A stretch of DNA of 64,000 nucleotides from assembly GCF_010501095.1 (NCBI RefSeq), contig NZ_QVMP01000016.1, positions 1 through 64,000 on the forward strand, given 5' to 3'. A program made the translations under genes and the position numbers. This document shows positions 12,097-17,309 of the stretch, one piece after another. This DNA comes from Dysgonomonas sp. 520 (GTDB lineage: Bacteria > Bacteroidota > Bacteroidia > Bacteroidales > Dysgonomonadaceae). Each line of letters starts with the position of its first letter. Within the stretch, counting starts at the first letter, position 1. The notes beneath the pieces were generated by a model that was not told the DNA's origin, did no database searches, and was given only the letters and a program-made list of their open reading frames with translations.

Positions 12097-12765
12097 TTAT
12101 TTTCTCACCTTTGCTATGATTGCAAAAGCATCTTTACACATCTGGGTTATTTTGCCCCAGTCTTTAGCCGCAATCACATCTTTAGGGAAAAGATTTGACC
12201 CCATACCAACACTTCCTACACCTGCTCCAAACCATTTCGATAGGTTTTCTTCGGTTGGTGTAACACCGCCTGTCACCATAATGTTAGACCAAGGCATTGG
12301 AGCTTTTACTCCTTTTACAAAAGCAGGACCGACAACATCGCCCGGGAAAATCTTAACAATTTCTGCTCCAAGTTCTTGTGCCAAACCAACTTCCGATACT
12401 GTTCCACATCCCGGAACATAAGCCACCTGACGACGGTTGCATACCTTGAATATCTCTGGATTCAGAAGCGGACCAACGATAAAGTTTGCTCCGAGCTGAA
12501 GGTAAAGTGATGCTGTGCCCGGATCAACAATGGAACCGATACCAAGAATCATTTCAGGGCATTCTTTCGCTGCCCATTTGTTCAACTCTCCAAAGATTTC
12601 ATGCGCAAAGTCGCCTCTGTTTGTGAATTCGAAAGCTCTTACGCCTCCTTCATAACATGCCTTAACTACTTGTTTAGATACTTCAAGGTCGTTATGATAA
12701 AATACGGGAACCATCCCTGTTTCTGCCACTGTTTGGCATACTTTTATTCTGTTAAATCTTGCCAT
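12097..12765 (-). CDS. eda: KDPG aldolase (bifunctional 4-hydroxy-2-oxoglutarate aldolase)
   Basis: A 222-residue class I aldolase. Key residues of the family are present: Glu46 in FEFTNRG, the Schiff-base Lys138 in VKIFPGD, and the phosphate-binding MVTGGV segment near the C-terminus. It splits 2-keto-3-deoxy-6-phosphogluconate into pyruvate and glyceraldehyde-3-phosphate, the last step of the uronate pathway encoded here. It is separated from kduD by the inverted-repeat element with the four-helix-bundle gene, and lies 21 bp upstream of exuT. Confidence 0.93.
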
Positions 12766-12785
12766 TTTTATAATTAAGAATTAAG

Positions 12786-13199
12786 AATTAAGAATGAAAA
12801 ATTAGGAATTAAGAGTTGATTTCAGGGTTTTAATTGATGCAACAAGTAAAGATATTAACTCATTACAATCTACTTGCATAGATGTAAATTGATTTTTATC
12901 AATATATTCGGTATCATGCAATAAAGAAATCCAATAATCAGTTTCATTTGCCTCCTTCAATGCGATACTTAGCTTATGAATAAAATCCAATTTGCTTTGT
13001 CCAAATTCGGATTCTCTTATCAAAGCTCCTATTGCAGTTCCGCTGCGTAAGATTTGTTTAGAAAGGACATATTCCGACTTGTCTTTTTGTAAGAATTGCG
13101 ATAATTTTACAATGCGAATAGCAAAAGCATAACTTTTAGTATTCAAAATAGAATTTGCACCTTTCCCCATTCTTAATTCTTAATTTTTCATTCTTAATT
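12786..13199. mobile_element. inverted-repeat-bounded unit carrying a four-helix-bundle gene
   Basis: The gene at 12802-13170 is bounded by 29-bp inverted repeats at 12786-12814 and 13171-13199 that match at 28 of 29 positions. The core of the repeat is AATTAAGAATGAAAAATTA followed by a second AATTAAGA. The left repeat encodes the last residues and stop of the gene. The right one ends one base before the start codon. The unit sits between kduD and eda, genes that are normally adjacent. This suggests an inserted, mobile or hitch-hiking unit. No transposase is present, so mobility is an inference. Confidence 0.55.
12802..13170 (-). CDS. four-helix-bundle protein (23S rRNA intervening-sequence family)
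   Basis: A 122-residue all-helical protein of the family first described from intervening sequences in 23S rRNA genes. It is also structurally related to Avd proteins of diversity-generating retroelements. Typical family signatures are SYAFAIRIVKLSQFL, the LSKQILRSGTAIGALIRES segment, and the ANETDYWISLL segment near residues 75-90. No reverse transcriptase or variable repeat is nearby. Function is unknown; relatives form pentamers and bind nucleic acid. The gene is tightly enclosed by inverted repeats and interrupts a sugar-acid operon whose other genes are all metabolic. Confidence 0.85.
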   Translation of the reverse strand: MGKGANSILNTKSYAFAIRIVKLSQFLQKDKSEYVLSKQILRSGTAIGALIRESEFGQSKLDFIHKLSIALKEANETDYWISLLHDTEYIDKNQFTSMQVDCNELISLLVASIKTLKSTLNS

Positions 13200-13209
13200 T
13201 AATTTATTT

Positions 13210-14001
13210 TTAAGGTTGTTTTCCGATATAAGCTAAAATACCGCCATCCACATAAAGAACATGACCGTTTACGAAATCCGAAGCATTAGATGCAAGGAAA
13301 ACCGCAGGACCGGCTAAATCTTCGGGAGTTCCCCAGCGAGCAGCAGGAGTTTTGGCGATGATGAACGAATCGAATGGGTGAGGCGAACCGTCTGCTTGTT
13401 TCTCGCGAAGAGGTGCAGTTTGAGGAGTTGCGATATAACCCGGACCGATACCGTTACATTGAATGTTGTATTCGCCATATTCGGATGCGATGTTGCGAGT
13501 AAGCATTTTCAAGCCACCTTTTGCAGCTGCATAGGCAGATACGGTTTCGCGGCCAAGTTCACTCATCATTGAGCAAATGTTGATTATTTTACCTGCTCTT
13601 TTCTTCATCATGCTAGGAAGCACTGCTTTTGCAACGATAAAAGGTGCATTCAAATCCACATCAATCACTTGACGGAATTCTGCAGCTGCCATTTCGTGCA
13701 TAGGAATACGTTTGATGATACCCGCATTATTCACAAGGATATCAATAACACCAACTTCGGCTTCTATTTGTTTAACCATTGCATTTACCTGGTCTTCGTT
13801 TGTTACGTCACAAACATAACCTTTTGCGTCGATACCGGCTTCTTTGTATGCTGCAAGTCCTTTATCCACAAATTCTTGCTTCAGGTCGTTGAATACAACT
13901 TTTGCTCCGGCAGCAGCCAACGCAGAAGCGATAGAGAAACCAATGCCGTAAGATGCACCTGTGATAAGGGCTATTTTTCCTTCTAATGAAAATTGATTCA
14001 T
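13210..14001 (-). CDS. kduD: 2-dehydro-3-deoxy-D-gluconate 5-dehydrogenase (SDR family)
   Basis: A 263-residue classical short-chain dehydrogenase: TGASYGIG nucleotide-binding motif at 14-21, NNAG at 91-94, and catalytic Ser144, Tyr157 and Lys161. The C-terminal YVDGGILAYIG segment is typical of Bacteroidales proteins annotated as KduD or gluconate 5-dehydrogenase. With kduI in the same operon, the KduD reaction is the better reading: reduction of 2,5-diketo-3-deoxygluconate to 2-keto-3-deoxygluconate using NADH. The start is supported by a purine-rich stretch upstream. Confidence 0.85.
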   Translation of the reverse strand: MNQFSLEGKIALITGASYGIGFSIASALAAAGAKVVFNDLKQEFVDKGLAAYKEAGIDAKGYVCDVTNEDQVNAMVKQIEAEVGVIDILVNNAGIIKRIPMHEMAAAEFRQVIDVDLNAPFIVAKAVLPSMMKKRAGKIINICSMMSELGRETVSAYAAAKGGLKMLTRNIASEYGEYNIQCNGIGPGYIATPQTAPLREKQADGSPHPFDSFIIAKTPAARWGTPEDLAGPAVFLASNASDFVNGHVLYVDGGILAYIGKQP

Positions 14002-16345: not shown

Positions 16346-16382
16346 TTAGTTTAGTGAACTGTTTAAAAAATTAAGAATGAAG

Positions 16383-16467
16383 AATTAAGAATGAAAAATA
16401 TATTCTCTCAATTTACCTCTTGTTCTTTGAAAAGAAATTCATCATTCTTAATTTTTTATTCTTAATT
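16383..16467. repeat. short inverted-repeat element, empty relative of the four-helix-bundle unit
   Basis: The gap between the DUF4861 gene and kduI contains the same repeat core found around the four-helix-bundle gene: AATTAAGAATGAAAAATA at 16383-16400, and an inverted copy at 16443-16467 (complement reads AATTAAGAATAAAAAATTA). An additional half copy lies at 16370-16379. Only about 42 bp, with no gene, lie between the arms. In mRNA it would fold into a weak hairpin. Confidence 0.6.
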
Positions 16468-17309
16468 TATCTTAGCTTATCAGCTGTGAAAGTGTCCATA
16501 TCGTCATAATCGAGGTTTTCGCCGCACATTGCCCAAATGAAAGTATAGTTGCTTGTGCCGGCAGCCGAGTGTATCGACCATGATGGTGAAATTACTGCTT
16601 GCTCGTTGCCCATAAAAATGTGACGGGTTTCCTGAGGCTCGCCCATGAAATGACAAACTGATTGTTGTTCAGGTATTTTGAAATAGAAGTATGCTTCCAT
16701 ACGACGCGAGTGTGTGTGTGGAGGCATTGTATTCCAAACGCTACCTTCTTTCAGTTCGGTCATACCCATTTGAAGCTGGCAACATGGAACTATCTCGCTC
16801 AATATAAGCTGATTCAGAAGACGCTCGTTCGATGTTTTAGGAGAACCTAAATCACGAGTGCGACGCATTTCTGATGTAATTTGAGCTGTTGGATATTCTT
16901 TATGTGCTGGAGAAGATGCGAAATAGAATTTCGCAGGTTTTGAAGTGTCTTTACTTTTAAAGATAACTTCTTTTGAACCACGACCCACATAAACTGCATC
17001 TTTAAATGCCATTTGATAATCTTTTCCGTCAACTGTTACAACTCCCTCACCTTCAATGCAGATGATGCCAAGCTCACGTCTTTCGCAGAAATACTCGGAA
17101 CGAATCAGGTCAACTGTTTCCAGTTTCAATGCTTCTTTCACAGGCAATGCACCACCGATAATAAGGCGGTCGTTGTGTGTGTAAGTCATTAACACGCTAT
17201 CAGCTTCGAAAAGTTTTTCTACAAGGAACTCTTTGCGAAGTTGAGTCGTATCGTAATTTTTTACATCGTTGGGGTGTGTTCCCCAACGCTCTTCTATTGT
17301 TGTTTTCAT
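16467..17309 (-). CDS. kduI: 5-dehydro-4-deoxy-D-glucuronate isomerase
   Basis: A 280-residue KduI, a two-cupin zinc isomerase. The zinc ligands of the family are conserved as His198, His200, Glu205 and His247 ([15 protein letters not shown] and SWSIHSAAG). It converts 5-keto-4-deoxyuronate (the open form of unsaturated uronates released by lyases acting on pectin, alginate or glycosaminoglycans) to 2,5-diketo-3-deoxygluconate, the substrate of KduD in the same operon. It lies 59 bp downstream of uxaC. The stop codon is immediately followed by the AT-rich repeat element. Confidence 0.95.

Follow-up and report, generated by a model that had tools for sequence, protein, structure and literature searches.

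In the genome of Dysgonomonas sp. 520 (GCF_010501095.1) a short gene for a four-helix-bundle protein of the S23/Avd fold (4HB) lies in a uronate operon, between a kduD-like dehydrogenase gene and eda, and is enclosed by two inverted arms. The window analysed here is the whole stretch from position 1 to 64,000 (forward strand) of contig NZ_QVMP01000016.1, 64,000 nucleotides in length, and the features that concern us are the following.

12097..12765, minus strand: eda (KDPG/KHG aldolase), downstream neighbour (PF01081; PRK07114 above cut-off)
12772..12814, plus strand: tandem heptad array (AATTAAG)n, the 3' arm at the downstream end of the gene, containing the stop codon (TRF period 7, 6.1 copies)
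12786..12814, plus strand: left arm of the best inverted-repeat pair, 28/29 complementary to its partner at 13171-13199
12802..13170, minus strand: 4HB gene, 122 aa (ORF call, Pfam, NCBIfam)
13169..13199, plus strand: tandem heptad array (ATTCTTA)n, the 5' arm at the upstream end of the gene, abutting the ATG (TRF period 7, 4.4 copies)
13171..13199, plus strand: right arm of the best inverted-repeat pair, partner 12786-12814, outer stem in the RNA fold
13210..14001, minus strand: kduD-like short-chain dehydrogenase, upstream neighbour (PRK07097 above cut-off)
16366..16401, plus strand: one arm of a gene-free hairpin of the same heptad type (AATTAAGAATGAA...; core matches, TRF, RNA fold)
16435..16469, minus strand: other arm of the gene-free hairpin, extending to the kduI stop codon (core matches, RNA fold)
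16467-17309, minus strand: kduI (ORF call)

An earlier reading of the sequence alone had described 29-nt inverted repeats around the gene, and a repeat search recovered them (28/29 complementary, 97%, arms 356 nt apart) together with the layout it gave, in which the stop codon lies within the left arm and the right arm sits directly against the ATG. The inverted pair therefore stands but its description needs correction, since the repeats are tandem 7-nt arrays that are wider than the core first quoted. The proposed S23 / 23S-IVS family of the 122-residue protein was borne out by scores above the curated cut-offs of both PF05635 (23S_rRNA_IVP; E 6.3e-27, 94.3 bits vs a cut-off of 33.8, Pfam) and TIGR02436 (E 3.9e-30, 104.3 bits vs a cut-off of 24, NCBIfam). 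To our knowledge this protein family has no known function. As for the neighbours, eda is clear (PRK07114 above cut-off), and the gene called kduD scores above cut-off for PRK07097 (gluconate 5-dehydrogenase) and below it for TIGR01832 (kduD). The 4HB gene is co-oriented with the operon. The compact unit free of transposase and reverse transcriptase was likewise recovered: Pfam scans of eight operon genes show no reverse transcriptase, no transposase and no tyrosine (Y1) transposase domain, the only gene between the arms is 4HB itself, and the 4HB protein has no catalytic domain by Pfam and NCBIfam scans. The cassette sits between protein genes and not within a 23S rRNA gene, and Rfam finds no rRNA in the window.

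The AlphaFold model of the window protein has four helices (pLDDT 94.4). Solved relatives by fold are 2RLD (BT_0352, S23 family) and 2GSC (XCC0516), each with five chains in the crystal; XCC0516 presumably comes from the same species as the Xanthomonas of the heptamer report considered below. The reference list in the excerpt of PMC10053308 gives the 2GSC paper as a structure of five four-helix bundles. Avd of diversity-generating retroelements (DGRs; 4DWL, 8UB7) aligns to the model with a TM (query) of 0.64-0.75, 13-14% identity and E 0.07-0.5 (Foldseek). The relation to Avd that had been claimed holds as an Avd-like four-helix fold, with E-values that are no better than those of some unrelated four-helix bundles. 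The likeness to DGR Avd is one of fold, and the difference is that none of the eight genes scanned in the operon of the window 4HB gene codes for a reverse transcriptase. Excerpts of PMC10053308 and PMC8700078 describe PF05635 as Avd-like near DGRs and four helix bundle genes among strain-unique genes.

A 19-nt core of the arms has 8 matches in the 64-kb window at three mismatches or fewer, against a shuffle mean of 0.28 (0/100 shuffles reach 8). Half of them (4/8) make up the second, gene-free inverted heptad pair, which lies in the same operon between a DUF4861 gene and kduI, has a loop of ~34 nt and spans about 16363-16469 overall. In the predicted RNA fold of 12763-13212 (minus strand, 450 nt) the outer stem is made of the two arms (-109.1 kcal/mol, z -5.98, 0/100 shuffles as good), and in that of 16360-16472 (minus strand) the arms of the gene-free hairpin pair (z -4.41). 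The core AATTAAGAATGAAAAATTA had been offered as diagnostic of the unit; it is not, because each element has its own heptad. As a marker in the own genome the core (AATTAAGAATKAARAATTA, one mismatch) was rejected with 14 matches vs 7 for a reversed control. The only other PF05635 gene of this genome lies between inverted arrays of a different heptad (AGTTACR), in what we take to be a fumarate reductase/succinate dehydrogenase operon. A further gene-free hairpin of the genome (G000:C7:71485-71539; L009, L407) joins an AGTTACR arm to an AATTAAG arm, which are the heptad types of its two 4HB elements.

The history of the eda site can be followed in relatives, 39/61 of which have an eda match, and 30 eda loci were compared. 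By tblastn with the window protein, a 4HB gene lies directly upstream of eda in 4/30 loci (own, G013, G032 and G102) and is missing from the other 26, including that with the closest eda (G090, 93% identity); the G102 protein is only 36% identical and its flanking repeats are different. A PF05635 match, present in 68/101 family genomes, brings three more genomes with a gene at this site (G019, G021 and G024). A tree of 91 family proteins places the eda-site genes of G000 (own), G013, G019, G021, G024 and G032 in one clade (100/100), and most other multi-member sites are also one clade each. Given this clade and the mostly inherited sites, the window copy at eda is an old resident of one clade, in six genomes. 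The idea of a mobile unit that has settled between kduD and eda is therefore right in that arm-gene-arm units stand inserted beside empty alleles in relatives (below), but the window copy is an old clade resident and not a fresh arrival. The same gene and repeats at eda in all relatives, with no other copies, is not the picture obtained: 26/30 loci are without 4HB, and the own genome has its second 4HB gene with different arms. The nearest empty kduD-eda gap (G090, L049) is too diverged for a target duplication at the window site to be read, and by eye holds an unrelated, non-heptad hairpin; the eda gaps L053, L056 and L060 are also hairpin-like by eye. We saw no movement of the window's own copy, sites being mostly inherited, and we infer its mobility.

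Inverted arms flanking 4HB genes are a cross-phylum rule of anatomy. Arms were called where the two 120-bp flanks of a gene, aligned in inverted orientation, scored at least 15. In all these counts orthologous loci are not independent and start codons were set by rule. By this criterion 67/85 family 4HB genes have arms vs 2/115 control ORFs (53 from the window and 62 from eda loci; ORF calls, not annotations), a count from which 8/93 genes with incomplete flanks or N were left out. The threshold is reached by 16/85 family genes in direct orientation and by 42/255 combinations with a partner flank from another 4HB locus. A multi-phylum set was formed from the best 80 of 579 matches in a genome-contig scan with an 11-sequence alignment, and covers, going by the titles of the records, Bacteroidota, Chlorobiota, Campylobacterota, Gammaproteobacteria, Cyanobacteria, Acidobacteriota, Clostridia, Verrucomicrobiota and others; one locus (L187, a 32-codon reading) was dropped, leaving 79. 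Among these best matches arms are found in 63/79 vs 1/63 control ORFs, direct orientation reaches the threshold in 17/79, and mismatched partner flanks do so in 69/237 because heptads resemble each other. An array of period 7, 14 or 21 is present in at least one flank of 75/79 (9/63 controls) and in both flanks of 53/79 (0/63 controls) of the same best 80 of 579. Below the arm threshold are 18/85 family genes and 16/79 of these multi-phylum genes. Arms are weaker in a Spirochaetota sample (11/27), and a sample of the cyanobacterial phylum has them in 23/30, with 7-, 8- and 9-nt units. A set from 14 further genomes (17/30 with arms) is not counted in the totals, as it has genes in common with the multi-phylum set.

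The cassette ends are thus inverted tandem arrays, mostly of a 7-nt unit (8-9 nt in some lineages), variable in sequence and fixed in polarity. A strict period of 7 is ruled out by the 8- and 9-nt units, which are mostly from the cyanobacterial-phylum sample. Two further ideas about the arrays were dropped. As stop-codon insulators the arms fail, since three-frame stops exceed those of unit-shuffled arrays only in the family 3' arm (0.65 vs 0.42) and are at or below them in the remaining three arm comparisons; and array copy number gives no support to one protomer per heptad, the medians of 4.6-5.9 varying with the score threshold. Rfam scans of 19 loci plus the window matched only 23S and 5S, both in one Spirochaetota locus (L266, G262:C108), where a partial 4HB gene lies in the rRNA spacer between the 23S 3' end (1-631) and 5S (1169-1276).

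Heptad and 4HB lineage go together even where the sites differ. We compared 3354 pairs of family genes from different sites. With arms counted as shared at a score of at least 20, sharing falls from 20/55 pairs at 60% protein identity or more to 32/441 at 45-60% and 27/2858 below 45%; the correlation of 0.257 was reached by 0/2000 permutations. Four genes from four genomes (L115, L124, L125, L129; 68-71% identity) occupy different sites, to judge by their neighbours, and their arms resemble each other (22-28). Pairs at different sites in the same genome share arms in 3/56. The 4HB protein is under purifying selection, with a median dN/dS of 0.09 and a maximum of 0.28 (44 of 70 pairs, those with finite dS). 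Where a 4HB gene lies inside a co-directional gene pair it is in sense with it in 111 cases vs 6 antisense (166 loci, the rest having other or missing neighbours). This bias, together with the long residence at eda and other sites and the fold in which the arms are the outer stem of a 450-nt RNA (z -5.98), would suit a resident element acting at the RNA level: an IVS-like mRNA hairpin, perhaps cut by RNase III, kept for operon regulation and mobile only in the past. There is a precedent in the Coxiella 23S IVS, of 428 nt with a 28-bp stem, which according to the excerpted report is cut by RNase III (PMC4990558). One would not, however, expect such a role of the insertions inside a methyltransferase gene or antisense between cas1 and cas2 that we describe next, and antisense genes have arms too; we regard this explanation as unlikely.

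On cyanobacterial plasmids the inserted unit is arm-gene-arm. Relatives were found by tblastn on 25 plasmids and in 2 phage records, and none was found in viral contigs. Flanks were read for 16/27 plasmid and phage records with a match (two of them, L415 and L416, nearly identical), and 15/16 flank sets have inverted arms; the one phage set read is without them. Four comparisons of filled and empty alleles could be made. In the first, the cassette interrupts a DNA cytosine methyltransferase gene in Nostoc ATCC 53789 pNsp_c, N6 pNPM1 and C057 p057_G that is uninterrupted in C057 p057_N, C052 pC052_C and UHCC 0302; in the first two carriers 454-466 bp have come in and 314-328 bp of host DNA are absent. 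The second is within one strain, Nostoc C052, where pC052_A compared with pC052_D has 422 bp in and 188 absent between flanks of 93% and 100% identity. In the third (Aulosira laxa NIES-50 vs Nostoc carneum and Tolypothrix) 502-508 bp are in and 25-31 absent, and in the fourth (cas2/cas1, Nostoc TCL26-01 vs UHCC 0870) 586 are in and 61 unaligned, the boundary being less sure. The ends of the inserted units fall about 0-14 nt from the outer edges of the arrays, and no target duplication was seen in any of the four. At the left junction the array end is shared with the empty allele in the methyltransferase case (CAATTCG) and the C052 case (AATT), and nothing clear is shared in the Aulosira and cas2/cas1 cases; in these last two the 4HB gene is antisense to both neighbours, against the sense-orientation rule. 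Cassettes at unrelated sites are 80-88% identical, and the match spans about arm to arm. That arm-gene-arm is a mobile cassette therefore seems to us highly probable. Two plasmids, Anabaena cylindrica pANACY.01 (L431) and Nostoc TCL26-01 pTCL26-01_B (L433), have the 4HB gene antisense between cas2 and cas1, and on two Nostoc plasmids (L428, L429) 4HB genes adjoin XisH/XisI genes, whose distribution is, in the excerpt of MacGregor 2015 (PMC4679880), like that of TAACTGA heptamers.

The same comparisons bear on the order of events. Heptad hairpins might have come first, by slippage and repair, with the 4HB gene settling in their loops later, and it is true that array length differs by whole units between close copies (L026/L027; the G405 copies below) and that heptamer over-representation has been ascribed to polymerase slippage (PMC4692102, in excerpt). 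The empty plasmid alleles hold no arrays, however, and the arms track the 4HB lineage across sites, so that this order of events, already weakened, is very improbable.

One genome of the cyanobacterial phylum (G405; one contig, 4,114,099 bp) is a special case. Twelve of its 16 4HB loci compared represent a single unit (97-99% identity to L307 across 291-385 bp), and their heptad arms lie inside a 16-bp terminal inverted repeat (TIR), TAACTGAYGTTACGCA, the core of which has 43 matches vs 1 for a reversed control. By eye there are 7-bp target duplications in six copies; others are 8-bp or imperfect, or have one end missing. A cassette inside TIRs with 7-bp target duplications points to ordinary transposition there. 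The locus set (G405:C1; L307-L321, L341, L346, L354) looks like a MITE-like family with and without 4HB whose short gene-free derivatives retain the arms, and most copies are split by a second insert that has AACCTSAGTTCGG at its ends. One could extend this case and suppose that 4HB everywhere rides on ordinary DNA transposons that have TIRs and duplicate their target. Yet the four plasmid pairs show no target duplication and we noticed by eye no TIR outside the arms in the family flanks, and we give such a generalization hardly any credence.

Heptads also occur apart from the gene. A degenerate heptad pattern has a median of 5 matches in 68 family genomes with 4HB (at least 10 in 24) and of 0 in 33 without (at least 10 in 1; p 2e-6), a difference confounded by relatedness of genomes and draft quality, with 13 genomes lacking a PF05635 match assigned by subtraction and a reversed control that is not always zero (up to 52 matches, G021). 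The enrichment with 4HB is seen within genera too (g3, p 0.005; g10, p 0.014). A genome with 4HB need not have arrays, since 31/68 of them have two matches or fewer. In random slices of at most 20 kb we found 3 arrays of period 7k in 357 kb with 4HB vs 0 in 334 kb without, which are too few. Gene-free hairpins (loop 6-36 nt) occur in 13/101 family genomes, 12 of them with 4HB, and have the polarity seen around the gene, although three of the 13 (G040, G064, G069) resemble direct arrays and a reversed control of the search matches G036 and G098. Hairpins of opposite polarity were sought and turned up only in G040 and G064 (2/101), where they are direct arrays by eye. In several gene-free hairpins, among them G000:C7:71485-71539, the two arms are of different heptads; the arms therefore do more than pair with each other and behave as ends that have an orientation. 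A 65-bp gene-free heptad hairpin is present in four copies in one genome (G007:C4:370523, C5:73535, C7:653669, C8:9427); each lies ~1.7 kb from another repeated heptad array, and they are thus probably inside copies of a larger repeat.

These gene-free copies recall the REPINs and their RAYTs, which in the excerpt of PMC3116915 are extragenic hairpin-forming inverted pairs, several types per genome, each with a nearby gene family. 4HB might similarly spread gene-free heptad hairpins in trans with the gene-bearing copies as masters, in line with the 12 of 13 hairpin genomes that carry 4HB, the polarity the hairpins share with the gene-bearing units and the richer heptad pattern of 4HB genomes. 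But 4HB is a four-helix bundle and not a tyrosine transposase, and is without a catalytic domain by Pfam and NCBIfam; its arms are tandem heptads and the gene travels within them. Many of the hairpins moreover pair two different heptads, G040, G064 and G069 of the 13 resemble direct arrays, and relatedness of the genomes confounds the association. We think spread in trans improbable, a little more so than the RNA-level alternative.

The nearest known relatives of the cassette are the 23S IVSs (e.g. that of Coxiella, PMC4990558, in excerpt), with the same protein family, ~430 nt, near-perfect terminal inverted repeats of 28-29 bp and an ORF in the loop of an RNA stem. In contrast to these, 4HB cassettes occupy gaps in operons and, in one case, the interior of a protein gene, and their arms are tandem heptads of varying sequence. 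The window arms, with their TRF period of 7, are also like the heptamer repeats of several bacteria, intergenic tandem 7-nt units that are often hairpin-capable. In the excerpts of these reports the STRR of cyanobacteria are usually 7 bp and of unknown function (PMC2670836), for the TAACTGA arrays ‘no mechanism is evident’ (MacGregor 2015, PMC4679880), and GGGAATC/GGGGATT heptamers are over-represented, which is put down to polymerase slippage, with 70 and 75 convergent heptamer pairs in two Xanthomonas genomes (PMC4692102). The difference is that none of the three, as excerpted, connects its repeats with a mobile cassette or with 4HB genes; the words ‘S23’ and ‘intervening’ have 0 occurrences in PMC4679880, as have ‘S23’ and ‘four helix’ in PMC4692102. 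Within the excerpts of the open-access PMC literature we found no prior description that joins PF05635 or four-helix genes with heptamer repeats.

How the cassette integrates is a more tentative matter, and we offer annealing of the arms as a mechanism that may well prove wrong. The cassette would be copied as a hairpin-ended nucleic acid, either single-stranded DNA or RNA/cDNA read from the operon, and the 4HB protein, a putative arm binder, would bind the arms and aid their annealing. With heptads that repeat in register, an arm could anneal in many alternative ways to short homologies exposed at a nick or fork; repair or replication by the host would then complete the joining, and whatever DNA lay between the points of annealing would be lost. 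After the unit has come to rest in a gap of an operon, its arms could base-pair in the transcript as those of a 23S IVS do, and its inheritance would be vertical, as at eda. Taken as a whole, with the annealing mechanism included, the reading of the window unit as a transposase-less mobile cassette, IVS-like but outside rRNA, is one that we favour slightly.

The 4HB cassette with heptad ends, long resident here and mobile elsewhere, is a real feature and one of general interest. We can go further only by speculation, and think the following a possibility with less than even chances. A cross-phylum class of mobile elements would consist of a single gene for a non-catalytic Avd-fold 4HB protein between inverted heptad arrays of almost any sequence, integrating free of transposase as the arms anneal at short homologies with deletion of host DNA. 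The heptamer repeats of cyanobacteria, Beggiatoaceae, Bacteroidota and Xanthomonas would be its gene-free derivatives and the 23S IVSs its rRNA-settled branch, and one heptad per protomer of a 4HB pentamer may set the period. There is no agreed origin for bacterial intergenic heptamer repeats in the excerpted literature surveyed. If the arms are the ends of 4HB cassettes, these repeats and the S23/IVS family would explain each other, and if the reading is true there would be a mobile element that has no catalytic gene and uses a fold that helps the reverse transcriptases of DGRs.
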